The translations under genes were made by a program, and so were the position numbers. Positions 1,247 to 53,919 of a stretch of 64,000 nt of DNA are shown here, one piece after another. The DNA is from Bugula neritina (lineage: Eukaryota; Bryozoa; Gymnolaemata; Cheilostomatida; Bugulidae), in contig OZ037769.1 in assembly GCA_964035545.1 (NCBI GenBank), positions 8,738,429 to 8,802,428 of the forward strand, written 5' to 3'. Position 1 is the first letter of the stretch. The number at the start of each line of letters is the position of its first letter. The notes beneath the pieces were generated by a model, which saw only the letters and a list, made by a program, of their open reading frames with translations, had not been told where the DNA came from and made no database searches.

Positions 1247-4200
1247 ATGAGTGAGGATTATGGCAAGAGTATCCTACGGGTGGTCATAGCACAGATCTGC
1301 AAGAATGTTGGCTGGGATTCAATCCACAGCTCAGCTCTGGAGGTACTTGTTGACTTTGCTGAGCGGCACATCAGTCAAATCGGGAGAAAGTCCAGAAGAT
1401 ACTCTGAACAATGTGAGTTTAAACTAAATATTTAAATTTCAGAAAAGGAGCAGCCGTAGTCTAGGGGCTAGAGCGTTTGGCTTAGTGAACTCGAAGTCAT
1501 AGGTTCGAAGCCCAGTAAAGGTCATTGGTGATGCAAAGGAGAGCATTAAGTCATAATTGCTCCTGTGTCCCATCTCACTAAGTCCTAAGTTTTATTTAAC
1601 AAAAAGAAGGTACACACTTCTAAGTTGCATAATAATAAGTTTGAATTTACAACTGTAGTTTACTTATGTGCCTCCGAGTTAATTCAAGCAGCATACATTG
1701 CATTACTCCTGGGAAGTTCCCCATTCAACTACTGTTTGTTTTATCTGCATATTTGTTCAAAACTAGTTAAAGTTCCTGACTGGAATTTTGTTTGCTAGTT
1801 GGCAGGATTGACCCGTCTGTTCACGAACTTGAGATGGTGTTCAAAGAAGTTGGTATTAATCCGAAAGAAATGCTAGACTACACCAAAAGCATTGATCCCA
1901 TTGCCATTAGTCAGCCAGTCTCAAGGTTTCCAGCTGAGTCTACTGACAAAGTTGAACTATTGATTCCAGTGTTGGATGATGAAGGAAAATTATCTGCACC
2001 TTCTGTTACCTTTGCTGACGAAGTTGACAAAGGTGACCCATAACGTTCATTTTGTAGTTGATGTAGTTTTTTGGTGACATGGTGGCCATATTGATTTCTC
2101 GTAAATATGAAAAATATTGTTGAGGGCTATTTGAGTTGAGTTTTTTTTTATAATTATCAATATTAGTTTTTTGAACCAAGTTGTAAGTTTTTTTCATTAT
2201 ACTGAAATTTTTTCATTGAAGTAGTAAAGGATTTTCAGTTTATTGTTTTTATTTAATAATTTGAATATTTATGTTATCAGTGTTTTTGCCAAGTGGGAGC
2301 CTCAAGATATTTGTCAAACCATATCTACCCCTATCTGTTGTAGCGGGGGTGAGTTCTGATGGACAAGAAGATGCTCCATCCTTAACTAATGACAATGCTG
2401 CCAGTCCTATTAGACCAGCTGCCGGCAAGTCTAGCAGGTAAATGAAACACGCTGTTCCATATAATACATAGAATGTGCTCATTTTTCCAAATTTATCTTT
2501 AACTTGCCCTCAATGTCTAATCATAGTAATTTCCTTTATTAGTATTATTGGAACTATCTTTTAGTTTTCATTTATTTTTGTGATTGCAGAGCTGGGAATG
2601 TGAGAGAAAATGTAAGATTTAAAGTTCGATCTCAAATGATGCTGGAGAATGGAGAGTTGTCCTCCTTTTTTTCATGTGGAAAAGCCCCCTCTGCAAAACG
2701 TCCCCCCAAACTTCAGCACGAATCAGCCATTCCTAAGCTAAAAGTTGAGCCAATCACCAAACCAAGAATTAATACTGGCATTATGAAAGCCAAGCCTAAG
2801 GTATTTAGTTCTTTTATACAAATCATCTATCTAGAAATTCTGTTTCATTGTGTCCACAATAAGTCATGGTGATGCCGTGTTCACAAACGTTCTAATCTTG
2901 GAAAAGTGCACACATACTGTTGTGTTTTAATAGATAAGTGTATTTAATGTATTTTATTATCGCAGACTGAATGAAAGAGAATGAATAACAAAAAGTGCTA
3001 GGTTTATAATAGTCTAAAAAGATAGCTTTTTGTGGTAGCCAAAATCCCTGTATATCAGCCCATCACAACAGAGAAAAACATAATGTAGTTAACATAGCGA
3101 TGAGCATACAATTACAGCTGTAATGTTTTAACAAAAGCTTTCCAAGCTCATGTAATGTCCCAACACATACATTGCACCAACTGTATTAAGTCATGGCTGA
3201 CTGCTTCTTAAGCCGGAGTTTATTTTTTGAAATATTAAAATTACATGCCCGTTGCTGAACCAGCGTTGGCAGTATAGAACAATAAATAAAACGTAGCACA
3301 ACCACATTAAGCAATAATCACAATAATGAATGTCGAAATTATCAAATTCTCCTTGGTGTGAGTCTGCACAAAAACTTAGTTAGTAATTTCTGTTGAGGGA
3401 CTAAAATACATTAAACTGAGTAGCCATTTTCTGCAGTCAGGTTTCTTAAAGGTGGATTTGAGTTATAAAATAAAAATACAACCAGTATGCAGTTTATAAA
3501 TGCAACTTTGTAATCTTTAAAAAAGTTATACCTTTAAAAATTCTCGTAAAGATTTGTAATATTTTATTTTCAGCCCAAGTCTCCCCCACCTATAGACGTG
3601 GAGGTAGATGTTTCTACAGTAGTTACTGAACCTTCTCCTCCTCCAATCACAGATCGGCTCAAACACAAACCTCCTAAAAAAGTTATCAAGAAGAAAAAGA
3701 AAACTGCTACTGCCGCACAGCCTGAAGGTACATTCTTTCTTACAGTCTCTCACTGTAAAATAATCACCTATGAATGTATTATTATTACTTGGCTATAATG
3801 CTGTTGCAAAATTTACTTAGTGTGTATATTCAGTTGAAGGTCGCATTTTTTGAGTGGTTTGTGAATATGTAGCTTTGACCAACTGTTTAGCATATTAGTC
3901 ATAGTATATTTTTATGTGGTTAGTTGAAAAACATTTCTTGGAAATATTATCTAAATCACGTAAATGAAAAATCACCAATGATGAATGAAATACAAGCATA
4001 AAAATAGCTATATAAGGAGTACATAATTACCATTAGTTATGTAAAGTAGATTTCGAACAGCTAAAAGCTAAGCATTAATTCCACCCAGTTAAAGCATATA
4101 TGTCAATATTATTTGTGTCCTAGTTGTAATATTCAGCATGCCCAAAGACATTCACTGACCTCTCTACCTTTTCCTGCTAATGATTTCATAGGTTTTACTG

Positions 4201-7200
4201 ACATATTTGGAGCTACGCTGGAGAAACCTCAGTCTAAATTGAAGTCAAAGCTGAGCAAACTGCAGCAGGCTATCTCTGAAGCTGAGACTATAGAGCGACC
4301 AGTAAGTGCTGCCAGTGCAGTCAGCGCTACCAGTGTGACCAGTGCTGTCAGTGCAGCTGCGCCCGTCTACATGGACGACATGTCTGACAGTGAGCTGAGG
4401 TCTCTTGCTCCAGACCTCTCACCAAGTCACACCGAAAGCATACCAGGGGCCAAGGTTGGTACAGTAGTTCTTGTTCAGCTGTTTTTGAAAGTGAGTTTGT
4501 CAGTTCATGTGAATAGACCCTTTTCAGTTGTTCCCAATATCCCCTTTACAATTAAGAGTTGTGTCCTCCCAAAGAGAATAAGTTGAACCTTTGTATAAAG
4601 AGCCAACTCATTAAAAGTTTAAAGTTTGGCTGCTACTTAAAGTTTTAATTATCCTATAGAATTGTTCTTTTAGAAGATAGATATTTTGGTATAGGCACAC
4701 ATGTTAGTAGTTTAAACAAAAATTTCTTCATTGAAAATTTTGAAAAAAATTAAGCTTGAAAGCATTTTTGTGGTTTTGATTACTGAGCAATGCTGAAGTG
4801 GTACTTCATTGCTCAGCAACCAAACTCACAAAAATACGTTCTAGTTTATTTTGTTCAATAATTTTCATTTTAGGAGAACACAACTCTTAATTGTAGGGGA
4901 AGATCTTGGGGACCTATGAAAAGGTCTATTCTACTGTGTATCTAACGTTACTTATTTTGAATAGTTGAGGTGCAGACCAGAGTTTTAAAGTTAATCTTAT
5001 AGATCTGTAGTCAGAGTAAGCTGCAGTATAAGAGAATATATAATTTACAACTCTCTTAGTTTGCTTCTGCCGTCAATGACTTCAATTTTTGAGCTAGAAA
5101 TTTAAGATTTAAAAAGAATTATAAACACATTACTAGACAATATTATTTGTCTAGATTTATTTTATTTTAAATGACATTATTTTCAAAATGTTATCTTTTT
5201 AATAGTAAACCTTTGAAACAAAATTTTATATTGTATCTTATATTTTTAGCTCTATTCAACATTAGCTGATTACTTGAAATGCATCTCATATTTTTGAATA
5301 ATTGATTACTCTAATTAAACATTAACTATGCTGTTTCTATTACATATAAAACACTAACATTTATCTTAGCATTTGGTGACCTCTGCCGTCCTTGTAGGCT
5401 AGACTGAAGAAATATGGGAGTACTATAGAAGCAGTTCTATCTAAAAGTAGTTCTGAAATGACTCGAGATGAGAGTGCAGTGGCTGATGCTTTCTCATTTG
5501 ATGACAGCATGTCTGGCGCAACTTCCGTATGTGTCACTTCCTGCTTGGGCTTATGTTAACTTTTCTCCACTACTATATGTTGATAATGCATTTGCATATA
5601 ATTTGAAGTTCTTATTTTTGTATTTACTAGAGCATGTCATTGTTAAGGTTAAACTCAAATTCAAAAGTAAGCAACTATGATATAACAACCAATGAAAGTA
5701 ACTACATTGAATAGCTCTTGAATTTAGCTAACTGCATGTTTGCTATTAACTAACCAGTTAACAAGTGATGTGTACATCCTAGGAACTATATACTAGGCAC
5801 TATAGGTAACATCATATTATATTATATTATATCATATTATACTCGTGTAGTTGAAAGGCACAAGTGAAAAGAAAACATCAAAAAAGAGCAAATCATCAGG
5901 TAGCTCTCGTTCTCCTCTCAATAAAAGTTCAGCCCCTGATTTGAACCCAGCAGCTGATGCGACTAATTCAAAAGACAAGAATGTAGCCTCTAAGGTGTGT
6001 AGTCACTGGTAGTCTAGTTAATTGAGAAAGTTACATAAATCTGATTAACTATGATCTGCGGGGTGTCCATGTACATAAGGCTAGTGTGTTAGTCTGCTAC
6101 TTTACTATTGCTATGCTGTAGAAACAGGAAATACTATGAAGGGAGAAACTGGTTAGGTCTCAGCGCACATTGTATAGCGTTAGAGTATGCATCTTGAACT
6201 TGTCCATATATTTAGACTGAGGGTGTTGAAAGTTTGTCCACAACTAATTCAACCTTGTAACTTCATTTGCTGTATACCTATTGAAGTCTTCATTCTGACA
6301 TGTTATCGCAGGCCAGTGCTAAAGACAACTACAAAGCTCAGAAAAGAATCAATATCAGGCGTATAAAAATGCTGGAAAAGTTAGCTACATCTACTAGCGT
6401 GGTGAGCAGACAACTACAGATTTACTCTGTAGAACTCTTTCAAGAGTTTGACTAATGGTCGCTTTAATGTAATGTTAGTTAGTTGTTTTTTTCATGTTTC
6501 ACTTTAGTTTTGGTCAGCTGTTCAAAAATGTGAGACTACCTTTGCTGATGATAGTTATGCTGGGCAATCTGTATTATATATAATATATAATATATAATAC
6601 ATATTATATATAATATATATTATATATTATATTATATTTTATATATAAGAGTTAACTTCTCCATGTATAAGCAGATACATTTCAGTTGATGATTTGTGTT
6701 AGGAACTCAACCCTTCTGTGAAATCTCCTCTGGAGCCCGAAGCTCCACAGCCACCTGCAAAGGCTGTAGATGTAGAGCCAGCAAACAAGGAGGAAGATGA
6801 TGAGGTATATAGCTTGCTGTCGTTTTCCTGGCAGCTCAAACATTTCCTAAGTGAACCGTTTGTTGGAATCAGCTTTATTATTTTTGATGGGTGCAGAATA
6901 TAGTCACATTGAGCTTTTTACAAAACAGCTTGTTTTATGCTGCACAGGGCTATAGATACGTGTTCTATGCTGCACAGGGCTACTAGTCAATTGTGAACAG
7001 TTAGAGTTTAAACATGCACTTTGTTTGACTAGGAGATAGAGGTGAATGTAGATGAAGACAGCGATGTAGATATACTAGAAGCTAGCTCTCCCACCCCTCT
7101 TCATCAAAACCCATATTCTTCATATTCAGAGACTGGATTTGCTGATTCATATGCTGCAACCCCACCCGCAGCTCCTTCCACTCCTCCTTTCCCACAGGCT

Positions 7201-10200
7201 ATGTATACTGAGCCTATGGATTATCAGCAAACACATTCAATAGAGTATGTTACTGATTTGCATAATAAATACAAATGACTTATAGCAAAAAGAAAATAGT
7301 TTTGTTGCAAAATGTTGCTAAATTTTGAAAATAATTAAAAATTGGCTTTTTGTCTTTGGGTGAACTACAATAATATTTCCACTACTGGTTAGGCCTTGGT
7401 CAATATTTATTTTTGTGTTGTGTTGCTATAGTTATATGAACATGTTGTCACTGCATCTCATCTGTGCATACGTTCATATTAAGAGTAATGATTGTTATTT
7501 TTTGATAGGCTTAGTCATACTGGAATGAGCCAATGGGAAGAACCTCCTACAGAGCCACCTTCTGTACCATACAGCAGTACAATGATTGACTTTGGCGCTG
7601 GTGTGACAGCCACCGAAGGTGTCCGGAAGGTTTGTGAGACTATTTTGGTTGAATGGTTTTATTGAAAATGTTTTTTTATTTGTTATAAAAACTGGAGTCT
7701 TATTTATTTATCGTAGGAGAAACACAAGAAAGAAAAAAAAGAGAAAAAAGAAAAGAAAAAAAAGAAACATAAGGAAAAAGACAAGGAAAGACAAGTCCAA
7801 AAAGAGGACAAATCCAAACACAGACATCACAGTACCTCTCCTCTTGTTGAGGTAAACAATATATCCAATGGCAGTTAAACAACTCTACTGAATAGAACCG
7901 TAGTTTGTCCTGTATACTATATCTTGTCTACTATATACTGTATACTATATCCTGTCTTCTATATACTGTATACTATATACTGTATACTATATACTGTATA
8001 CTATATCCTGTATACTATATCCTGTCTACTATATCCTGTCTACTATATACTGTCTACTATATCCTGTCTACTATATACTGTATACTATATCCTGTCTACT
8101 ATATACTGTCTACTATATCCTGTCTACTATATACTGTATACTATATCCTGTCTACTATATCCTGTCTACTATATACTGTCTACTATATCATGTATACTAT
8201 ATACTGTATACTATATCCTGAAAACTATACACTGTATACCATGTTCTGAAAATATATTTTCTCTGATTTTATGTTTTTCATAAAATGTGCCAAACTATAC
8301 TTATAGTTAATAGTTCTTGTACTGAACTGGTGTATCTGTTGCCATGTTTTACCGGAAGCTAGTGCAGAATGCCATCATTTCTCGAATTCAATGAGCTGCA
8401 CAATATCATACAGTTCCCTGCTCTTCTTTATGTTTTAGTATTTGCAATAAACTCTGCTTTACCAGCTTACTTAATCATTTTAAAAGCATGTTATTATTTG
8501 ATTATAATCATACAATTGGTAAGTAGTTGATTCAAACTTTTGAAGGGAGCCGATGATTCGCCCCAACAAGACACTGTGCCGAGGCTGACCTTAAAAATTG
8601 GATCTCAGGTTGTACAGGAAGAGCTAAACCAGACTCCTCCCCAGAGGGACACCTCCTATACATCTTCTACACAGCTACTAGGAGAAACAGTTCCTAAACT
8701 GTATGTTGAACCAGTTTTACTTTTTCTTAGCTGTTTGTAATACGACTATTCATAGCACTCATTCAATAATCACGTTTTAGCAGGGATTATTGTCTGTGTA
8801 GACAGTATACACTTGTAATAATTTGCATATTTTTGTCCCTCTGTGCTGATGTTATGTGGCAAGATTGTAATTTACCCAGCAATAAACGTATAAACACAGC
8901 AGCATTAGCTGACAAAAATCACAAGCACTGTAGTGGTATAGCAGCACTATTTAATAGTACAATAGCAGCTTTCTTGTTCAATCACTTTAGCTCAGTTAGG
9001 AAACCTAAACCTCTTCAAATACTCAGCAGTAGTCATCAAAAACTTGTCATTATTTTGCATTATTTTGCAGGAAATTATTTTTCTTTTTCTGTTATTTCAT
9101 TGTGCTGAGTTGTAATAGCTTAATACCTTTTACTGATGTGCATAATTGACTTATTAGTACGACTCAGTATCTGCTTCCACTAGAACCTATACATAATTTC
9201 GGTTACAGCGTTGTTTCGAGATTAGAGTAAAATTAGCTCTACTCTTATGAAATGTTTTTATTGACAGCCTGTAACTTGAATGTTTGTTAAACTCAGCCCA
9301 CTTCCTTGGTCTTTATTTCAGAGTGATAAAGCCAGTTGATGCAGGCATTGGCTATGGATCATACCCAGAGTCCACCAGTTTTGCACCACAGCCTGTCTTC
9401 CCGGTAATTGTATTTCCAATTATGTGTACGTTATTATTTTACCCTTTGATATGTCACCAGTCTCATCACTACTGTGTATTCACAGGTGGCCACCAGCTAT
9501 GCAGCCCCTGCTTACATTGCTGACCCAGTTGCTATGCCCGATGCTGATGGTAAAATATGGATTTGTCCTGCTTGTGGTAAACCAGACGATGGCAGTCCTA
9601 TGATTGGCTGTGACAGTTGTGATGAGTGGTACCATTGGTGAGTTTAGTTTATTGAAATTGACTTGCTGTCTTGCGTATTGCAGTATCTGGTACAAAAGTA
9701 TATGAAAATCTGGACGGTTACTAAAATGAAAATCTCTTCATTTAAAACTGTAATAGACCCTTTTCAGAGGCCCTCAATATCTCCCTTACAATTAAGAGTT
9801 GTGTTCTCCCAAAATGAAAATTGAATTGTTGAACAAAATAAACTAGAACACATTGTTTTAGTTGCTAGGTAATGCTGAAGTGTCACTTCAGCATTGCTCA
9901 GTAACCAAAACCACAAAAATGCTTTGAAATTTATTTTCTTCAAAGGTTTTCACGAAGAAATTTTTTAACAATTTTTTGAACTGCTAATATGTTTGTTTAT
10001 ACCAAAATATCTATCTCTTAAAATTACAATTCTATAGCATAATTAGAATTTTAAGTAGCTGCCAAACCTTAAATTTTTAATGAGTTTGCTCTTTATACAA
10101 AGGTTCAACCTATTCACTTTGAGAAGACACAACTCTTAATTGTGAAGGAGATATCGGGAACCTCTGAAGAAGGTCTACTCGAAAATCACAGCATGATATT

Positions 10201-15062: not shown

Positions 15063-18000
15063 TCAACGGTGACCCAAGGCTAGATATGTCAGAGCACGAA
15101 CTGCACTCAGCTCTTTGTCGTTCAGAGACCTACAATTTATAACATTGTGATAGTTACACTTCAAGGTACCTCTTCACAGGCACAAATAGAACCTATTCTT
15201 GAAAAATCATACATACATGTTGTGAGGAAGCTCCACATTGTAGGACGGCGACGATGAACCATTTCTATTAACATGCACTTGTGTGGAAGCTGCAGAACGA
15301 AAGTAAAACAGTTATCATATTGATAAAGAAAACAATTTTTATTATACGCGAATAGCCCAACAGGTGGCTAGTTTTTATATAAATAAAACTGAATCAACAT
15401 GTCATTTATAAGCAAGATATGTATGCATGTCTTAGATTCATTTACTAGTGGTAACGACAAATATTATTGAAAAATTGTGTCTAATATCTATTTAATCTAA
15501 TTACAATAAAATATATGAAAATTGATAGATCTTTCAATTTCTAAAATAATGAAAATACTCTCAAAAGATAATGAAAAACAGAATGAGTTAAGATGTGAAC
15601 CAATAGATGCTCTGAGATAGACACTCACTAGGTGTAGGCTGATCGAGTAGAGATTGCTGATAGTGAGTCACAGAACTTGCATCATCCTCATGATCTGCCG
15701 ATGAGAGTGAGTCATATCTGTGAATAGGATTGGCAGATATTTCTGGATAATGTGAGGTGCTGTGGCCATACCTCAGAGTGTCATTCAAATACCTTTGTAG
15801 TATACTGTGTTTGTTTTCACCCTATAAACAACATAATGGACATATAGTTGCAGAGGGTTGGACCTTATGTACTTTGGAAGGTTTTCTTTAATAAAAGATA
15901 AACTAACCAGTCTTCGCCATCTCTATAAAGTAAAACCACCATCTTTTTTATACTACAACAGTAAAGTAGTTCAAAAATATCTATTAAGTTAAAGTGCAAT
16001 ACTGAGTTCAGTTTGTCAAAACACATAGATTTCATCCATCTTTTTATATTAATTGTTTAAAAACCAATTATTTTAGTTTAAAAACCAATTATTTCAGTTT
16101 AAAAGACATAACATATCAATTGTATAATAAGCTGTCAACACACACGAGCTAAATTAATAGAGAAATCATTATAGTCATAATACCATGATAAAACGATAGC
16201 AGTCTGCTCGTGCAGTTTACTACTGAGCTAGAATTCTAGTAAGCTGCATAACATGTTTTGAGCACGTTTTGATGTAATGATATTATAGCAGAAAGATGAA
16301 AGATATGTAATTTTAAATGTTCAACTCTTGATAAGTTAGTGCTATAATTTGCTGCATATGTAGAAACTTACATTATTATCGATTGTTGTTTAATGTTCTA
16401 TTTATAACTCTATCTAATACCAGCAGGATATTCTTATAGATAGCACTTAATTTAGAGAAAATATAGCGTACAACAACTATATTATCAGTCACAAACAACA
16501 TGTTTATATATTATATACTAGCATAATTGATTTTAGATTGCCACATTAAATACATCTCTAGTAACTTGCTTACAGCTGGCTTAGTCATATAGCAAACAGC
16601 AATGGTTCCATGCCTGCTGCTGCTTAGCACTTACTATATTACCAAAAAGCTGGAGGTCTGTCGATTGGTGGATGTGAAAAAAAAACATTAACTTACAGAT
16701 TGACATTGTCATTTGAATGCATGGTGTGTTATAACATATCCCACCCAGTAGACCTCCAGCCTTCCAGTGCTATAGAACAAACTAAGCAGTGCAGAACCTG
16801 CCAGAGAAGTTGAGATCCCTTGATGAAGGAGGTACAACTTCAACTCCACCAAAATCCTGGGCCATACAGAGATTTCTACTCATGCTCACTAATGTAAATG
16901 TTACTATTATTACAAAGGTGAAGTATCAGAATATCTAGATCACAACATTGATCTACAAAGTGGGAGCTATTGTTACTTAAACAAGTAGTGTATGAGGAAC
17001 GCCAACCTGCGGATAGACAGAGGGTTCTGGTTCACCCGCCTTCAGCCTTCTCCTGGCATTGCAAAACCAATTATTAACCTGCAAAAGTTCATTGATTAAA
17101 GTAATAATTCTATAGGAAGTGAAACAAGGAAGAAAGTTTAATGTTACATGAATATATAATATTGCAAACACTAGCAAAAAGCTAATTGCAAGAAAATAAA
17201 AAATTGAGAAATTATATACCATGTTTCCAAGATTAATTTTATGCAAAATTGATTTTCAAAGAAGCTATAGCCCCATAAAGAAAACTTCTTGATGTCTTTC
17301 TACAGTTACCAAAATATGCACCACTTTATGATTCTATGGTTTTGCAAGAAGAAAATGTGGCGGGTTTGAAATAGAATTATGTTTTTTTAGACTAAAACTG
17401 CAGCTCCTTTCTTGGAGTATGTAATTATCATAACATGTAGACATCATATTAAAGAATCCCTGACACACTTTACTTATATAGCACGAAAATATTCATCTAT
17501 ATCTTAGCTATCACTAGACCACCCCTTTGAGGGTGGATGGCTAGACTATTTTGTTTTATAACAAGATTAGTGCATGCATGTCCAGAAAACTTTCGGATTT
17601 CTAAGCTCTCAGTGCACACGTATTACGCCGGTTTCCGGTCTGCTTCGAGTCCTAGTTACTATATAACTAATAGTAATAATTGCATACTTTCACAGCATTT
17701 TATTTTTAGCCACTGCAACACACAGATAAATCACTAAACTGACATAAATTTTAAAACACAGAGTACAACTAAGGCTCAATGAAAAAAACAAATGATACCA
17801 TTTTATTATTGATATTAAGAGCTAAAGTTACTTCCGTTAGAAATTTTGAGCATCGGAAAAATGAAATAGCCTCACCCTCACGATGTAATTAGAACGGGTG
17901 GCTAAGTACGGGGATAACACGATATTGTTGAAAGAAATTAGCTAAATCCAACGAGTGGTAAACTTTTCTATAAAACATTACAAATAATTGCATATTCAAT

Positions 18001-21000
18001 TATGTAACTTATTACGCTTCCAAATAGATTATCATTACCGTAACCGGATATTACCAATATAACCTGTGCCTAGTAGTACTACTACTAGTAGTAGTCGCTC
18101 GCTATCTATATAAATTAGATTTCATATTCATATTGCCATTGGACTCTAATGAACAAACTTATTACCTATATTACTAGTTACACTTACTGTCGACATGACT
18201 ACACGAATGGCTTCAAGTTCTAAAGGCAAATGCAAAAGAAGAGTGTGTGAAGCTGCAATGTGTTCGTACAAGGAAAAACACATGTTTAAACGGCCTGCTG
18301 ATACTGCGTGTGGTGAAAAATGGACCAAGTTTGTCAATACGAAAAGAAAAAACTTTCTGCCTGATAACAACTCTCGTTTGTGTTTTCAGCATTTTGGTGA
18401 TGAACAATTTACAAACATGGGCATGTATAAAACAAAACTCATTAACATGTAAGTGAATAACTCACTCAAACTCATAGTCATAGTGATACTGACTAATGAC
18501 TTAGTGATTGTGATATAATTAGACGATAGGCTAATGATAGTTTTTTTAATGTTGATTTTCAACAATAAGTATAGCCTAACTATAACTATCAACTAGTATC
18601 AAGTATTACTACAAGTTGGTATAAGTCAATAGGATTGTCATGACCGTGTTGATTCAATTTCATGTGACTATGACATAAACTTGCAAGTACAAGTTTGCAT
18701 TTATGATTTACACGATAACCATTATTGTAAGGAAATTCATTTATAATGGCGATAATATGAAAGACTTATGATTATCAGAATGTGTCATAGTCACTTGGAT
18801 ACATACCATTAATATTATGATTCATACGCACTGATACTCATGCTATGAGTATGATACTGGTAATGGTGCCCATCATCAATACCAGTAAAAATTAATGGTA
18901 AATATTGTTCACTTATTGAAAGAATAAAAATTCATTGTCTTTGATTTACTCTTTAGATTGCATTTAGAGAAAACAGCAGTCCCAACTATTCATTTAGTGG
19001 AAACTGAGGGTGCAACTGGATGCACTCCATTAACTCCTCGGAAACAAAGTCAGCAGGCGGCCACTATCACACCTAAAGAAGCTCGCTGGTTAAAAAGAAC
19101 AGACCCTGGTTCTGTAAGGATTATAATATTGAAAATGCGATCTTGAGCAATAAAATTGAAATATGATATAGACAGCAATTGAGATTTTCTGCAGCTGTTT
19201 CAATAATACTTTTCCAGTTACCTTCATATATAATAATATTTTAGAGCTTTGCCAAGTCAAACAAAAAAACCAGCTCTCCATCGTAAGCCAGAAAAGAAGG
19301 GCCTACAGAAAGGAATAGGACACAACAAATATGTGCAAACACCTAAAAGGATGCAGAAAAAGATTAGAAGCAAAGCTGTTCAATGCTGGTATATAGAAAT
19401 ATGGCGAAATAGTATTGTTCACTTAGCTCAAAAACTGAATTCATAGCTTTTCTACATATTTATTTTTATTTAAAATGCATGTTCTAATGCAACAAAAAAC
19501 CAAATATTTTTGTGTAATGGAAATAATATTTTTAATTTTCCACCTCAAGGTGTGTCAAAAATAAATTTGGACAATATATCTACTTGTAGTCTCAGTTTCC
19601 ATTGAAATGTAGATATTGTAGAATATGATCTTAGAGTCACTTGAAAAGTTCAGCGCAAAAATAGTCACCATATTGAAGTATATTCACCATTATTGCAACT
19701 CAAACTCAACGGTAAATTAATTTCAAAGGTCAGGGAGATTGCAAATAATGAGGTTTATTCTCATAGTAAGCTGTACACACTACAAGAGGCAGTAGCAACT
19801 GACTGCTACTAAAAATCACCAGAGTGTTAATGTTCATAAATCTTCATTGTACACGAATTTGCTGAACATCCATTCAGCAAATTCTTCCTCATCTTCAGTT
19901 GGGGGGAATGTAGCTTGCACCCAATCGTATAAGCAAGCTGGTAAAGGGCGTCTCTCACCCTTTTTAATATCTGGAAACAGCCAGAACACCAAAAACCGGT
20001 AGCTGCAGAACCTTTTTTTAGTGTTGAGAGAATGGGCCTTCTCATCAAACAAATCATCTACCAAAATAAATGATTGGCTAAATAATCAAGTAAGACTATC
20101 TAGAAAAACTAACAATGACAGTTACTGATCTACAGTAGCAATTGACTAACCATGATATCTCAGGTAGCTGCTGTATGCAACTTCTAATACAGCTGGTTGC
20201 GTCAATTGCTGTACTCCCGGGTGCTGTGTTATACATTCCATGCTGCTATCTAATCGAAGGTTTGCAGCATGATCACGGCAACAAACAGACTGTTCCACTG
20301 TAGGCTGATTTTGGCAGCGGTGGCAAGTGCACCACTCCGTGGCTGGCCTTATATTTTTCTACAAAACAAACAAGCTTTTCTAAAAACGTTATTACCAGTA
20401 TCATCCACATTAAGTCCATTGATTACTGTGTCTAAATTTGTTTCCTGTATGTTTCTTTGTATTGAAAATTGAGTCCAATGAGGCTGAAGTTTGAAAATAC
20501 TTTAAAATCATGGGTTTTAAAATATTCCAAGTTTGCATTACTGTTCAAACTATTTTTATATTTATAGTTGAAAATTAATTAGATTTTTTATATCAAAACA
20601 AACTCATAATTTTTGCTATGAAATAAACTAATTTTCAGAAATTTTAAAATATTTTATTGTTGTTAGTACTATATGTTATACTATAAAAGCAGAAATTCAG
20701 AGAAATAGGGGGCTTAGAAATAAAATACTAAATGCTATCATCGTGAATGCAAGTTTCACATGATTATGTATGTGATTAACTTATTTTGTTAAGGATCGGT
20801 ATAACCACAATTACAATAAAAGTGAATAATAATTATCATTATTATGCATTTATAAAAATACGGTCTTTCCCTTGACTTAAATTATCAGGTAAATCTAACT
20901 ACAAATAATTAATACTAATACCTGTATTGGTAGTAGTAATAACAAAATTAGTATTGATCAAATATTTAATTACTTGACTGGAATTTGTAATCATTAAATT

Positions 21001-22291
21001 TAATGATTATCACTTTATTATTAATAATATTATTATTATATAAACCGGTAGCAATCATCAAATATTTAGCTTGTAATTTGATATCATGCTTGCTCTAAAG
21101 CTTTAGTAGCACAAAACTCAGCTATATTAACTAATTAAGCCAGGATCAATACGAGCATTGGCATTGAGCATTGGAATTTCGATTACAAAATGAAAATGAA
21201 ATATTATAATTATAATAATTTATAACTTATACTAGCTTATACTTATAACTTAAAGTTAAAGTATTACTATTAGTATTAGTATTACTATTAGTATTACGGT
21301 ATTAGTAACACTATAGTTTATAAAATTAAATCGTACTGATACTGTAAAATTATAAATATTATCACCTGTTGCTCATCAGTAACAGTAAAATCCTTGTCAT
21401 GACTATCATCTCCATTTTCATCTTGATACGTAAACGGCTCAAACTGATAGCCCATTACTTCAGAAATCTCAGTGACAGCGTGAGTGTGATTGTCATAGTC
21501 ATACTCATTGCGATTCTCACTGTGCTCTAAGTATTCTTCGTCAGAGCCAGATATGTTCATATTGATATCGTATTTATGTTATTTCTGTATTAGGTTTATC
21601 TTTATCACAATTACACTGCACAGACTCGGACACGGTAAGTTGGTAGCTATGTATTTATTGCCGCGAAATTTGTTTATGAAATAAAACCTAAATTCCACAA
21701 AAAAATACTAATTGGGGGCTAGACAGACGTCCGATAAATTAAAAATGCTAAAACTAAGGTTACATGCAACGGAAAATATAGCCAATACTTAATTTCCGAA
21801 TGTCTTACAGGCGGCGTTTCCATCTATTTCTCGCAACTGCGGTGTAATACGTCACAGAAGGGCGAAAAAAATTCTCGAAGTTTTTTGGACATGCATGCAC
21901 TAAAACTGTTATAAAACAAAATTGTTTAGACCTGAAACCCTAAAAGAGTGTTAAAATGATAGCTAAGACATAGATGAATATTTTCATGCTATATAAGTAA
22001 AGTGTGTCAGGAATTCTTTAATAATAAAATCAGATACAGAATAGGTATTTATCATAGCAAGTAATAGGTGTTTATGAAGTAGGTATTTATGATAGTAGGT
22101 GATAGGTGATTATGAAGTAGGTATTTAACATACTTGGTTAAACTTCAATCCAGATTGCTCAGCTAACAAAACTTTCTCAGCCCTTGATGGGTAGGGATGA
22201 GCTCTGTTTTTCAAAAACCAAAGCTTTAATGGCTGTGTCATGTTCAGCAAACCAGAGATGGACACAAAACATGGGCCAAATCACTCAGTGT
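15063..22291 (-). CDS. MKX: Mohawk-like TALE homeobox protein (partial, N-terminus outside)
   Basis: A homeodomain transcription factor of the Mohawk/Irx branch of TALE. Exons in transcript order: 22271-22291 (candidate), 22134-22232, 17007-17078, 15629-15821, 15217-15289, 15063-15129. The homeodomain reads (TLSDLAH)PLKLWFLKNRAHPYPSRAEK...LKFNQ | VNNWFCNARRRLK, with the PYP of the TALE three-residue loop extension and helix 3 split by a 5-kb intron. Exon 4 begins GENKHSILQRYLNDTLRY, matching the family block with R-Y-L-N-D-S/T-L-R. The last exons give LSAVRALTYLALGHR-stop, matching the Mohawk C-terminal motif (x-A-x-x-A-L-T-x-L-A-x-G). All phases join. The conserved W-A-L-R-I-K-L-Y segment after the homeodomain was not found; exon 3 can splice in frame straight to exon 4. 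Residue 50 is Cys. A transposon fills the homeodomain-splitting intron. Confidence 0.88.
17449..17452. other. TTAA target-site duplication, left
   Basis: TTAA directly outside the left inverted terminus; the matching TTAA lies at 22,018-22,021. Together they fix the ends of the 4,565-bp transposon. Confidence 0.75.
17453..17512 (+). repeat. Left terminal inverted repeat
   Basis: Sixty bases from AGAATCCCTGACACAC to TCTTAGCTATC match the reverse complement of 21,958-22,017 with three substitutions. Confidence 0.85.
18195..19286 (+). CDS. THAP-domain protein encoded in the transposon
   Basis: A C2CH zinc-finger DNA-binding protein. Exons: 18195-18448 and 18957-19113, then a third from 19245. 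Exon 1 has the THAP signature: C18-x4-C23, W43, and C63-x2-H66 within RLCFQHFGDEQF. Across the splice the protein reads KTAVPTI, the conserved A-V-P-T-[IF] box that closes THAP domains. The tail is Thr/Lys-rich. With the first acceptor the third exon ends quickly at 19,284-19,286 (150 aa in all). Another frame of that exon stays open to about 19,445 and is Lys-rich, so either the splice differs or the end is frameshifted. THAP domains bind the ends of P and Kolobok elements, which fits a role in recognising this element's termini (inference). No catalytic domain follows. Confidence 0.82.
18456..18900. repeat. Degenerate period-6 DNA (THAP gene intron 1)
   Basis: Words such as CTCATAGTCATAGTGATACTGA with a loose six-base phase, the same texture as in COX6A intron 1. 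No exon signal is seen inside. Confidence 0.5.
19754..19759 (-). promoter_or_regulatory. Poly(A) signal of the ballast-domain gene
   Basis: AATAAA on the minus strand (TTTATT on plus), 75 bp beyond the stop codon of the P2X7-ballast-like gene. Confidence 0.55.
19834..21560 (-). CDS. P2X7 cytoplasmic 'ballast' domain-like protein, 208 aa
   Basis: A stand-alone homologue of the zinc-coordinating C-terminal domain of P2X7 receptors; no channel part is present. Exons in transcript order: 21366-21560, 20151-20358, 19834-20057. Phases 0 and 1 join to a complete 208-aa ORF. The N-terminal 65 aa are acidic, ending in a GYQFEPF motif common in invertebrate members. Exon 2 gives WCTCHRCQ, then CCRDHAANL, then ECITQHPGV. 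Exon 3 gives FCSYRFLVFW and RRPLPACLYDWVQATFP. These match the Cys pattern of the family (W-C-x-C-x2-C, C-C, C-I-T, C-x-Y-R, P-x-C, I/V-x3-F-P), which binds two zinc ions in P2X7. It lies convergent with the THAP gene inside the same inverted repeats and starts about 460 bp from the right end. Its role in the element is unknown. It looks intact. Confidence 0.87.
20800..21340. repeat. Degenerate hexamer/AT low-complexity DNA (ballast gene intron 1)
   Basis: TTAGTATTAGTATTACTATTAG-type words and AT runs fill most of the intron between exons 1 and 2. Nothing else is seen there. Confidence 0.5.
21958..22017 (-). repeat. Right terminal inverted repeat
   Basis: Reverse complement of the left terminus (see 17,453-17,512). 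It ends ...GTGTGTCAGGAATTCT and is followed by TTAA at 22,018-22,021. Confidence 0.85.
22040..22131. repeat. Short direct repeats between transposon and homeodomain exon
   Basis: AGGTATTTATGATAGTAGGTGATAGG-like units are repeated about twice with variation (TAGGTATTTA four times), filling the gap between the right TTAA and the MKX-like exon donor. Confidence 0.7.
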
Positions 22292-36902: not shown

Positions 36903-39900
36903 TCAGAGCTGAGAGTTTTGGGTCATGCTAATTTGTGTATCGCTGGTTCCATTTACTTTTTCTTCCCGTATGCGAAGGAACATTCTAGATAACTTTGAGA
37001 AGCTCTCCAATTCAATCACTTGTGACAGAACGACAGAAATACCTTGCAGTGTAATGAAAACACTTAAAACAATCCACAGCTGCCTTTTAGCTGGTCCAGA
37101 TCCACCAATCTCAGTAAAAAACAGCAATATCCAGTGAAATCCAAATATTATCTGAAGTTTTACTACAGTCAAAATCTTCTTTTTGCTTCGTTTCTTATCT
37201 GCAGTATGAAGATTCTGATCTGATTTGACAATTTTGTACACAGCAATAACACACAGAATTGAGTTGACTAAAATCAGTGCGTATATAAACCCTGTGAATG
37301 TCAATACTCTTATCCAGCCTCCCTCCACAAAACACAGGTATGGGGAAAAGACTGGGTAGAGGCCTGCAACTGGAAATCTGTCTAGTACATAAGTTAAGGC
37401 AATGAACACTCCTGGTGTGAGCCAAGAATACAAGGCAAATTTAATGTATGTTTTTTTTCCACTGGTGGCAGCAATTTGAACTTTAGTAATTCCACGTATC
37501 ATCCAAATAGCCAGAGAGTTTGTCCATGTGTGCGTACACATTAGAAAATACTGGGCAAGCGACCCAACCACCTGACAAGCAACTCTTGAGTTTCGTACTT
37601 CCTTAATAATACTGTAGAAGAGCAAAGCTCCCACGAGGGTGGCTATTGCACTTACAATGAGATTTCCTGTTAAAGTCCATCGTCTTCTGACCAAATAGTA
37701 AATTATGTAGATAATGGAAACAGTAATTGATAATGCTGACAGTATATAGTCTTGTAGCTGCAAATCAAAACCAGGTAGCTCATATTCAGCACACACTTTG
37801 ACGACCTCCCCTTTCAAATAATATTCAGCGTATTTTGACACACCATCAGTTCTGTCAACTTGAATACAGTCATCATTACAGAATTTGAACTTAGAAGTTG
37901 TATTGATAGTTTTAAATTTTGAACAGTAACTTAATGTGCTATGCATTATCGTTGAAAATAATGTATCAAATCCAATGTGCGACTTAGAGGGTTTTATATT
38001 TAATAGGTATGTTAAAGGCGTATATTTGATTTCAAAAACATTTGGCATTATATCTTTGAATTTTAATTGCTGTCTTGGAAGAGCTTTCAATCTTCCAGCT
38101 ACTGTTTGAAAAATAATGCTGTTCATTCTTTCACTTTCAGAAAGAGCAGTGCAACGTAATAATTCTGAGGTATAACAATGAACACTGGGCACTACTTCTG
38201 ATCGATTTGTTAGATAAATGTCATAGGTATATACCAATTTGCATGCTGACATGTTGTGGATGGAAGCTGGTTGCAGCTGCTTACATTTGTCACATTTTAG
38301 TTGAGCATCTCTGGGTAGTAATACTTTATAAGTAAAGCCTTTCTGACACCCAGCGGCCTCAGAAGGTGTAATCAAATGCGCAGACGTTCTGTTAGGGTTT
38401 GTTCTGCAAGCTAGATCTGTGACTTTAGTTGAAAACATACTTTTGCACGTCATTGTGCTAAGATCTATGACCTCATTACAGTCACACCGTCTGAGAGGTG
38501 CGACCATGTTCTGACAGGTGTCTTGTCCAGTCTCATAGTTTGGGTAAACCAAATATGCATCCGAGTCTCTTGTACATGTCCTCTCATTGAAGTCTATGCG
38601 GAAAATGAACATATACTTTCTCTCTCCATTTATGTACTGGTTAAATAGTTTCGTTTTATTCGCATTCGATAAGTTAAATGTTCTTTTCAAATGACATCCT
38701 TGCAAGGCTACATTATAGCAACTTGCACAGTAACTATTACGGAATTTTCTATTGGCCGAGAAGACTGTGATGTTTAGGGCCTTTTCGGTTTTGTTATTTA
38801 GAGTGGTCAGTTGAGCAGAAATCTCCAATTTATTTTGATATAAAGTATTGTTGATTACCTTGTTATAATAGCTATCTTCATAAACAAATGATGCAGGTTT
38901 TGTCTCACACAATTTGGCATTTCTATGAGCTTTTAAGTGGTCAGGGCAAGAGGCAATATACTGTTTGCTATCTAAGCGACACTTTCTGTAGTCATCTTGA
39001 TCTTTGGGTGGAACAAACCTTTTGATTTTGCACAATCCTGTCCTGAATTATAAAAAAATATAACAAAAATAAAACATTGATTTGCCATGTATATTTAGGT
39101 CTAAAATCAAAGTTGCTTCCAAAGTAATCCATCCATGTATAATATTTATATATAAAACAACAATGCAGTTTTTGAAAACGCAATGATTAATAGCAATTAA
39201 AGTATATATACACCCCTCACCCTTTGTTTTGAGTCAATTAGAAGGTTTTTAAGTAGCATGTTTGGAGACTTCCCAGGCAGTCTCTTGAGACATTTAAAAG
39301 ATACTCTGCTAAGTAACATATTTTTATTGATTCTTTGGTAGTGATAATAATTGGCTCTTTTAGTTTATTCATAACTACTAGTTAATTAAACCAGCAGTTC
39401 TTCTAATAAGTGTACATCTAGTTGTTGTTGCTGAATGACTGTTTCTCGACGTATTGCGGTTACCATGTATCACCCGCAATGCTCTGGCATACTATGACTA
39501 GAAATATTTTTATTTACTATTTATAGAACTTGAAGTGTGGATGATTGTGTATCCCTACCTAATTTCACTATTTATATTACACAGCAATACTTCATATATT
39601 ATATATAAGTTATGCTTAATGTAGGATATCAGTTTTGTTTTGTATAGGCTGTTTTATACTAATCACGTATATCATAATATGCACCTCATAAGCAGATTGA
39701 TATCTGGGTCCAATCGCAGGCGATATATTGTTTCTCTGAACTTCTCTGTAGTTGGATCAACTCCCATAGGCTGAGGATACGTGTCATTTCCCACTTCAAC
39801 ACACCCAATTTCTAGCCTTCAGAACACAAAATCTTTTACTCCATGACAAGCCGCACAGTATTGGTTCTTGTAGCTGTTGAAATAATTAAGTTTTCAAAAT

Positions 39901-50562: not shown

Positions 50563-52910
50563 TTCTTTCTGTTATAACTAAAAATCAAACAGTTTAGCTA
50601 ATATTATCATAATTAAATATGAAACTTTAAAAGCAGTATATTTGTATAGATTTTCACAATTTTTCGCTATTTTCCTTATTATGAAAGTTTATCTGAAACC
50701 AAGCTCTGAAAACAATATTTAAAATACATGCTTATAGTTAAATTGTTGTTAAAGTTATTATTATGTAGTGATGATTGCCCCTCCAGCATAGGCCTGGGCA
50801 GTCACAGTAATGCTGCTCAGGAAAAAGGAGTCTTGCTCTCCAGGTCATAAATGATTGATGAACGTCTGATAGTAATTTAATTAAGGTGATTCCATTCATG
50901 TCCAAGTGTTTGAAAAACTGCAGTAAGCGAAATTACTCAATTTTTAGAGACCAAGTACATCTGCTTTATTTACATTTTGCGATTTTGTAGTAATGTTTTC
51001 AATACAATCAGATGAAATGTTCAAATCAAACCTGTTATTTACAAACTATATGTTGCTTTCATATTATTGTAAAAAAGTTAAAAAATATTTTTTAAAAGTT
51101 GCTTTCATTATATGCGTTGACAACTCCAATTTGAAATTTCCACACACCTCTGATCTCATATATTATAATACAGGCTGTTGTGTTTGGCTAGGCCATAGAA
51201 ACAGTCTTTCATAGAATGTTAATTCATTAGTTAGCCTACTGTTGTATTTACTCATTTTAGTTTCCAGTTGCTAGTTTTCTAGAAATTGACAACTAAAAAC
51301 GAAAATAAATGATCGTATATGGTAATGAAAGTTTCCAGTACAGGTGTACCGGGATTACATATACAAGGATATATGCAACTATGTGGGCATGCTCCACAGC
51401 TACAAATAGTTACGAATGTTGGCTGGCAAGTTTACCAGCTACCATTTTGTAATTCAAATTCTAGTTGATATCATGGAATTAACATCTAGAGTAATTTATA
51501 TAATATACCCAGCATGTTCAATAGTTCTGACACGGTATAAGGCTCTTAGTCCGTGTGATGTCAGCAACATTAGTGTACACATAGAATTCTCTTGCAATTT
51601 ATGAATAGGTTTGACAGTTCCATTATATGCTAATCTGGATTGGAAAATGCATGAAATTTTACCAGCACATTGCAAGATATAGTAGGCATCCCGGGTATAC
51701 TCTGTAAAAGTACCAAATTATGTTATAGGTTGTTTTTTTCAAAATCTTAGGAAAAAGTCCTTTTATATTTGATTCCTTTTATTAACTCTGAGAAGAAATG
51801 TGCTAAGTGAGTCATAACTATTATCACGCAGCCTGTTATTACAGTCTACTTGCCATTATAAAACCGTTTTGGAGAACAAAATAAAGTTTTAATATAATTG
51901 TTCTAATCATAAGTTAATCATCATTTCAACAGCTCCCTCCATATCTCACTAAGCTATGGGTCCTGAAACCTCAATTAAAGACATAGTAGAATAACAGGTT
52001 TAACTCACGGATTTGTTCAATTTGGCCATTTTGTTTCTATACATTCCTCCGAAAGCTACAAAACATGGGTCCAAGCCCTTCTCGTGACATGGAACATGTG
52101 AGAAAGGTATCCATAAGATATGGAGAGAGAGTACTTATAATATCCAACTGCTAATCCTTCAATGGCAGCATATAATTCGAATGTTTGTGTGGCAACTACT
52201 TCGCTACTTGTAGTTGCTTATAAGCTAACACAGCTGCCAACTAACAACTGCAAATTAGTGAAAATATTATTTTCTAAATTTTTACCAAAAACTATTTTAA
52301 CTACCTGCCTAAAAATACTAGATTTATTTAGTTACTAACTTTTATTCTGCAGGCACAGCTAATGACATTTCATAAAGGTGGCTAAAACTGAATGTTTGCC
52401 TTGTATTGTGCTGCTAAGTTTAGTAAGCTTACTCTTACTTAGCAGTAGATGTCTTCCTCCAGGTGTTGAAACGGTGCAACAGATCAAAGCCTATAGGCTA
52501 TAACTCCACCCCAACATTCTACAGTGTGCAGCTGTATGTGTCAATAATTCACTTGCAGTTAAAGGTGATAAGCTGCTATCTGACATATAAGAACCTAAAG
52601 CAAACCTTCTATCATATGACTTCAGAAAAAACAACTTTTTTTTAGAATATTTAGTAAAAAATTGATTTCGTTATTATAAAAGCATGCTGTCTTTTATTAG
52701 ATATCATGATTCATATTTTGCATCTAGTTTTATTTATGCATTAATTTATTTGCATTGAAGATGGCACAAGGCTCTGTCAAACGTCAGTAAATTCATTAAT
52801 TGTTGTACCAGGGCAATGTGAACTATTTGCTCTCATCTAGACATAATTAAACCATTTGGACACACACATGACTTATCACACACAGTGCTTCCATACTACC
52901 ACGTCAGCAC
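50563..52910. other. Intergenic DNA, nothing recognised
   Basis: No convincing exon or element on either strand; short open frames lack family motifs and splice context. Confidence 0.5.
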
Positions 52911-52912
52911 TT

Positions 52913-53425
52913 CAATATACCATCAATATATCCCTCACAGCACTACAATATATCCCCCACAGCACTACAATCTATCCCCCACAGCACTATAATATATCCC
53001 CCACAGCACTACAATCTATCCCCCACAGCACTATAATATATCACCCACAGTACCACAATATATCACCCACAGTACTACAGTATATCACCCCCACAGTACT
53101 ACAATATATCCCCCACAGCACCACAGTATATCCCCCACAGCACTACAATATATCTCCCACAGTACTACAATATATCCCCCACAGCACCACAATATATCTC
53201 CCACAGTACTACAATATATCCCCCACAGTACTACAATATATCCCCCACAGTACTACAATATATCCCCCACAGCACTACAATATATCTCCCACAGTACTAC
53301 AATATATCCCCCACAGTACTACAATATATTTCCCACAGCACTACAATATATCACCCACAGTACTACAATATATATCACCCACAGCACCATAATATATCAC
53401 CCTCAGCACTACAATATTATATTGC
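52913..53425. repeat. About 21-bp minisatellite (ACAGCACTACAATATATCCCC)
   Basis: Around 24 imperfect tandem units with variants CCCCAC/TCCCAC/CACCCAC and GCACTAC/GTACTAC/GCACCAC. Long open frames across it (YHPQY/IPHSTT) are due to the repeat. Confidence 0.95.
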
Positions 53426-53919
53426 TACTGCACCACAATATAGGCTACCATCCAAAGCATGTCATAATTCACTGTCTCCACTGCAAATCTATATCGCTGC
53501 AAAACCAACCATCTATTGGTTTTATCATAGAAAGACACGGTGAATCCTTTTGGAGTCATGACTTCAAAGTGACCCTTCAATGCGTAGAAAGACAGTAACA
53601 AATAAGATAGTTAATAATAAATATGTCATGGCTATCATATACGTAGATGTTATAAGCATATAGAAACTGTGCTCTTAGAGATATAATTCAAAACTCCTTC
53701 CTTTCAATAGCTGCTAGAAATGTCTTTGATATCTAATACTCTACAATCATATGAGGAACTAGTCAGTTAGTCTAGAAGTAACCTCCAATTATCTTTCACT
53801 CATTACACTTCGAGGGGTGGCCACGCAATTTTTTTAGAAATAGAAAGTTTGAAGGGTCCTAATTAATCTGTGAAAACTCTAGACTGTTCTATGCACCAAA
53901 GGCCACAAAAGCGCTTCAA

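Follow-up and report, generated by a model that had tools for sequence, protein, structure and literature searches.

How does an element move that has TTAA-flanked inverted ends and carries a THAP gene and a P2X7-ballast gene, and in which no DDE transposase can be seen? Such an element lies in the window studied here, a 64,000-nucleotide stretch of Bugula neritina DNA (C5:8738429-8802428 within the 215.8-Mb assembly). We are highly confident that it derives by internal deletion from a Kol0-type Kolobok DNA transposon and is non-autonomous; it would be moved in trans. Specifically, the parent element would have had two convergent genes, a spliced transposase gene (THAP in exons 1-2, DDE further down) and KolX; a segment of about 2.85 kb containing the DDE exons has been deleted, and the ends, THAP exons 1-3 and KolX are retained, this being the observed part. 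Cut-and-paste movement would then depend on a Kolobok transposase provided in trans by full-length sisters, the sole remnant of which seen in the assembly is copy L040 (C8:9090467-9097893), which would since have lost the exon with the first catalytic D. The deletions presumably arose through interrupted gap repair. More speculatively, the THAP protein left after truncation may attach to the ends and repress transposition in the way of the Drosophila KP element.

Ends, target site and the two genes

The element occupies window positions 17449-22021, the TTAA duplications included, with the following features:

17449..17452, no strand: left TTAA target-site duplication, from the letters and from sister copies with a single TTAA at empty sites
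17453..17592, plus strand: left terminal inverted repeat, starting 5'-AGAATCCCTGACACAC (5'-RR)
18195..18448, plus strand: THAP/transposase gene exon 1, with C-x3-C ... C-x2-H and the P, W and F of the THAP domain (PF05485)
18957..19113, plus strand: THAP/transposase gene exon 2, with the AVPTIH box; 2 nt absent at the 3' end
19245..19446, plus strand: THAP/transposase gene exon 3 (basic), in the frame of the sister copies; start approximate, joins by eye
19615..19617, no strand: deletion junction, where about 2.85 kb with L040's DDE exons is missing; 3-nt overlap
19834..20057, minus strand: KolX exon 3 with the stop; joins by eye
20151..20358, minus strand: KolX exon 2, with WCTCHRC ... VCC ... 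ECIT
21366..21560, minus strand: KolX exon 1; joins by eye
21878..22017, minus strand: right terminal inverted repeat, finishing ...GTGTGTCAGGAATTCT-3' (YY-3')
22018..22021, no strand: right TTAA target-site duplication, from the letters and the fetched copies

An earlier sequence-only reading had proposed a TTAA-flanked element with near-identical ends of about 60 bp, and this holds: TTAA stands on both sides, the outermost 60 bases of the termini are identical at 57 positions in inverted comparison, and the ungapped inverted repeat extends over 146 nt at 85% identity (17447-17592 / 21878-22023). The termini read AG...CT and so have the 5'-RR ... YY-3' form that, together with TTAA, is given as a Kolobok feature in the available part of PMC9587614.

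The same reading had suggested searching the genome with the terminus for full-length copies. With a 32-base end pattern this gave 108 matches (60 + 48) at up to 3 mismatches, and 0 + 0 for a reversed control. From these matches 23 two-ended copies were paired by hand, each end having at most 1 mismatch, and 20 of them were fetched (L031-L050; the window copy is L031). Both genes recur between the ends, and TTAA is present on either side of all 20 fetched copies, whose 20 flank pairs are all distinct. For L047, at least 14 loci span the junction of the joined flanks at 95-100% identity (of 127 candidates, 40 were scored, and 24 further matches at 70-72% were left out of the count), and for L048 one paralogue does so at 91% (all three candidates scored); in both filled sites the two halves overlap by exactly four bases, TTAA. 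The 4-bp TTAA duplication of Kolobok was accordingly found in 20/20 fetched copies, with empty sites for two. Both L047 and L048 are inserted into repeats, that of L047 with at least 14 near-identical empty copies, and we take the flanks by eye to resemble Ty3/gypsy integrase and gag.

Among the seven copies that share the window's form, pairwise identity is 99.4-100%, and they would therefore have moved recently. A further group of termini among the genome-wide matches has 2-3 mismatches, many of them ending CTTCACTTATGCA; it points to a related family, or to miniature inverted-repeat transposable elements (MITEs), with the outer 22 bases in common.

Inside the ends, two convergent spliced genes had been read, one with a THAP and one with a P2X7-ballast domain, and both assignments are borne out by profile comparison. 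The spliced THAP reading (in sister-copy letters) matches PF05485 at 2.1e-07; the domain spans exons 1-2 and has the C2CH, P/W/F and AVPTI(H) features, and the available text of PMC6004289 lists C2CH, P/W/F and an AVPTIF box for the THAP domain of Kolobok transposases. The 2-nt loss at the end of exon 2 is unique to the window copy (1/20) and breaks its frame into exon 3, so that its product is 150 residues long vs 204-206 in whole copies; the THAP frame is whole in 11 of the 20 fetched copies, the window copy not being among them. In the derivatives the exon 3 frame (as in the sister copies) continues through intron 3 to a stop.

The opposing gene encodes a 208-residue ballast protein on the minus strand, which matches PF20478 (P2RX7_C) at 8e-14 and P2X7 chains of solved structure (6u9v, 8.4e-05), with WC-C--C, CIT, C-YR and LP-C aligned. 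We assign it to KolX of the Kol0 lineage, the P2X7 ballast feature being found at the sequence level; its frame is whole in 12 of the 20 fetched copies. The combination with THAP had been thought undescribed, which does not hold: Kol0 Kolobok was reported in 2022 to encode a transposase and a second protein, KolX, with the P2X7 cytoplasmic ballast fold, and KolX was proposed as the source of the P2X7 ballast domain (PMC9587614, in its available part).

Searching the genome with the PF20478 family yielded nothing, in the controls as well, and protein queries did find KolX; the failure is probably due to the gene being split into exons. About 60 of the listed genome matches cover only about residues 146-184 of KolX (50-63% identity, mostly in a 50-residue frame), and we assign them to a separate abundant repeat carrying a KolX core fragment. 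Moreover, six matches to the KolX C-terminus (47-51%) lie on one strand at C6:12940873-12946177 with a spacing of about 1 kb, possibly as a tandem array.

The missing catalytic exons and the sister copy L040

As the sequence-only reading had stated, no DDE transposase is visible in the element: a DDE protein query run against the whole genome has no match at the window copy, and the DDD/E with C/DxxH pattern was not found there (the domain scan covered 6 of 29 open readings). This absence is explained by an internal deletion. Mapped on L040, positions 1-2169 of the window copy correspond to 1-2154 and positions 2167-4573 to 5001-7427. L040 is 7.4 kb long, with the same ends, the same two genes and an extra 2.8 kb between them; this extra part, between THAP exon 3 and KolX, encodes ...TTDRH...FDTWHICKG... 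and NTSELESFHALLN. The second D, DTWH and E are present in this transposase part, and the first-D exon has no match; of the DDE core that the earlier reading asked for in longer copies, L040 has the second-D and E exons. A query strung from the DDE exons of L040 matches seven proteins, including P0005 with THAP (PF05485) and PF20700. The published description (TTAA, 5'-RR/YY-3', Kol0 as transposase plus KolX) fits, and we regard the element as a Kol0-type Kolobok; the relation to Kolobok noted earlier stands on the TTAA, the AG...CT ends, the Kolobok-type transposase in L040 and KolX. Of the two routes then offered for its movement, a partner that supplies the enzyme remains necessary, and a new mechanism is made superfluous by the deletion junctions and the DDE exons of L040.

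At the position of the first-D exon, L040 has an exact, inverted copy of 101 bp of its own right flank. This filler occurs at two places in the genome only (C8:9093914-9094014 and C8:9097897-9097997; 2/2 candidates), and the first D would therefore have been lost in place, after insertion, with the filler as a likely mark of interrupted gap repair. The KolX frame of L040 is shifted close to its end.

Genome-wide, DDE exons at >90% identity occur only at C8 (17 matches; 15/15 candidates scored). Other DDE matches (36-79% identity, depending on the exon) are located at C6, C5:13.49 Mb, C1, C5:7.80 Mb and C4; the first-D region is also matched at C6, C5:13.49 Mb and C1, and at C6 and C5:13.49 Mb KolX is matched on the opposite strand. 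The C6 relative (L054) reads GDGRCDSPG, TTDRH...FDTWH and NTSELEAFH, that is, all three catalytic stretches, and three of its segments are 93-97% identical to a Bugula neritina protein (the alignment of a fourth crosses an intron). It also has a weak THAP match (36%, E 2.1e-4), and with THAP, DDE and KolX matches at this locus the order there is therefore THAP - DDE - KolX. That L040 arose by insertion of a DDE segment into a two-gene element was considered and rejected, as the relatives keep the same order and as the derivatives differ in their junctions at both sides and in the L040 remnants that they keep.

Several points weigh against the element being a trans-mobilised Kol0-type derivative. 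The exon joins of both genes are by-eye readings of the sequence; the ends of the C6 relative are unlike those of the window element; and no intact DDE copy of the window's subfamily was found in the assembly (15/15 candidates scored), and with it no source of the enzyme that moved copies 99.4-100% identical.

Recurrent deletions and their possible causes

The 19 other fetched copies were mapped on L040, and fall into the following deletion classes (left/right breakpoints in L040 coordinates):

2154/5001: 7 copies, the window's class
2394/4950: 7 copies
2310/4810: 1 copy
2547/5130: 1 copy
2737/5159: 1 copy, with an additional smaller deletion
2336/5196: 1 copy, which may derive from 2394/4950
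2803/5257: 1 copy

An older copy, C1:34836502-34849099 (88-91% identity over most compared parts), has breakpoints at about 2790/5223 with about 55 unaligned bases between. By position the window's class nests over 2394/4950 and 2310/4810; by shared variable sites it groups with L040, L047 and L048 and not with either of these classes. Gene conversion aside, at least six and probably seven independent DDE deletions are represented.

All deletions remove the catalytic exons; THAP exons 1-3 are left, and KolX is left complete or almost complete. The left breakpoints (2154-2803) are all within intron 3 (about 1926-2807 of L040, by eye), and most of the right ones (4810-5257) fall in the interval from the transposase stop (about 4903) to the KolX stop (5220). 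Three do not: 4810 is within the last transposase exon, 5223 sits at the KolX stop, and 5257 clips about 12 KolX codons. The main junctions of the 19 mapped copies overlap by 1-7 nt. No direct repeats of ≥22 nt able to give deletions of similar length were found in L040 2300-6000. Among the 23 two-ended copies, 21 match THAP and KolX and have no DDE match (2 of these were not fetched whole); the remaining two are L040 and C1:3630181-3631340, a 1.16-kb form consisting of the outer parts only, and a 408-base two-ended form is also present among the end-pattern matches. When each deletion was slid at its own length, the probability that 7/7 keep THAP exons 1-3 and KolX to 5260 was 4.75e-06; treating one to three smaller derivatives as failures raised it to between 3.3e-05 and 3.7e-04. 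The limits of this test were chosen after the data had been seen.

Among explanations for this pattern, we give nearly an even chance to a neutral geometry of gap repair, in which synthesis proceeds about 2.2-2.8 kb inward from each end before a microhomology join, the genes being kept by their location. Tract lengths are similar on the left (2154-2803) and on the right (about 2170-2617), the short junction overlaps and the flank filler of L040 are as expected of gap repair, and gap repair that aborts between short direct repeats is an established process (PMC8700633, in its available part). However, the 1.16-kb and 408-base forms indicate that far shorter tracts also yield copies, and this geometry does not predict breakpoints near exon and stop boundaries. 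Such tracts fit the data at least as well as a function of the retained genes; if they are the cause, what we describe is an ordinary set of deletion derivatives.

A selected KP-like repressor, which would extend our explanation of the element without conflict, is a tentative possibility on which we lean to the doubtful side: loss of DDE would be favoured as the truncated THAP protein binds the ends and blocks or tunes the transposase, KolX still being supplied. The seven classes with their confined breakpoints and the sliding result speak for it, as does the sharing of the DDE-less THAP plus KolX form by 21/23 two-ended copies; in the available parts of the literature, moreover, KP is a self-encoded repressor (PMC8700633), and Xenopus Kolobok proteins that keep DNA-binding motifs and have lost DDE are proposed as suppressors (PMC6004289). 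Against it, the limits of the sliding test are post hoc, and both frames are whole in 7 of the 20 fetched copies, at least one being broken in the other 13. Substitutions are too few for an inference of selection, with nonsynonymous:synonymous counts of 7:4 shared and 17:12 single for THAP (439:116 sites) and of 3:2 shared and 26:7 single for KolX (507:117 sites). The wider proposition, that Kolobok repeatedly evolves KP-like regulators consisting of a stand-alone THAP protein (ended in intron 3) plus KolX, with such two-gene derivatives as nearly the only survivors of the subfamily in this genome, is by analogy conceivable and quite doubtful. If it were true, KolX would be part of what the derivatives need or exploit, which would give a functional context for a P2X7-related domain in a transposon. 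We know of no tested role for KolX. Young derivatives without the catalytic half and with THAP and KolX are a natural experiment on the roles of both parts, and might represent a second, independent case of KP-style self-repression; no description of KP-like Kolobok derivatives was found in open PMC papers, which is a weak negative.

It is unlikely that the element is cross-mobilised by another Kolobok family and not by its own full-length parent. The CTTCACTTATGCA-ending termini do form a further group in the genome, and three other loci match both D regions; on the other side, the ends of the C6 relative, the one compared, differ, and L040 has the same ends, with its first-D exon lost in place after insertion. 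A piggyBac-type or piggyBac-mobilised element, to which the TTAA target would also point, is very improbable, as the 5'-AG...CT-3' ends place it with Kolobok in the distinction drawn in the literature, cysteine motifs mostly absent from the compared piggyBac proteins are retained in KolX here (both from the available part of PMC9587614) and the L040 transposase is of Kolobok type; piggyBac identity was rejected, its terminal bases and transposase not being found. That a transposon operates here without any DDE transposase is hardly credible even though the assembly yielded no intact DDE copy of the subfamily, since L040 has DDE exons between the same genes, relatives have both D regions and the deletion junctions account for the absence.

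Apart from the large deletions, young copies carry many small insertions, 17 of 53 events (each present in no more than 4 of the 19 aligned copies) being exactly 6 nt; many are a 5-bp duplication with 1-2 filler bases, e.g. ATGTT-G-ATGTT and GTAAA-G-GTAAA. In L031-L050 they cluster around the first exons of both genes (17983-18587 and 21028-21452). They look like excision footprints of a transposon with a 5-bp target, or products of staggered-break repair; such duplications with filler show some excess in the rest of the window, confounded by tandem repeats.

Directly left of the element, at about 16977-17080 on the minus strand, is a reading LLQVNNWFCNARRRL that we take to resemble a TALE homeobox exon, and the window copy may lie inside or beside a TALE homeobox-like gene. 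Farther along the window, a 714-residue reading on the minus strand (36903-39047) is 94% identical to a Bugula neritina protein over 81% of its length, which agrees with an origin of the DNA from Bugula neritina or a bryozoan near it. Finally, positions 52847-53598 hold a long low-complexity reading of a SPTVLQYIPHSTTIY-type repeat, a coding-like tandem repeat.

Comparison with known systems

Kol0 Kolobok (Kolobok-1_XT type), as given in the available part of PMC9587614, has the same TTAA, the same 5'-RR/YY-3' termini and a KolX with ballast similarity, and its transposase is found in part in L040; unlike it, the window copy is without the DDE core. Subfamily A1 of the Xenopus XKol elements likewise has TTAA and AG termini (AGCGATTCTGACATGG vs AGAATCCCTGACACAC here) and a THAP domain with C2CH, P/W/F and the AVPTIF box, as here. 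In contrast to the window copy it has full transposase genes, and the available text of the source nowhere mentions KolX (PMC6004289).

Full-length relatives and both gene types were thus already known, and what is unusual is how often the same loss has recurred. Among other elements that invite comparison, the P element makes an 8-bp duplication and is not known to carry KolX, and the T2-MITEs are miniature and not known to contain THAP and KolX genes. The KP form of the Drosophila P element is similarly non-autonomous, with its catalytic part deleted internally and the THAP end kept; repression is reported for KP (PMC8700633, available part) and is speculative for the window element. The Xenopus T2-MITEs, according to the accessible text of PMC6004289, are likewise non-autonomous and probably derived from Kolobok, and share with the window element the TTAA and the AG termini.

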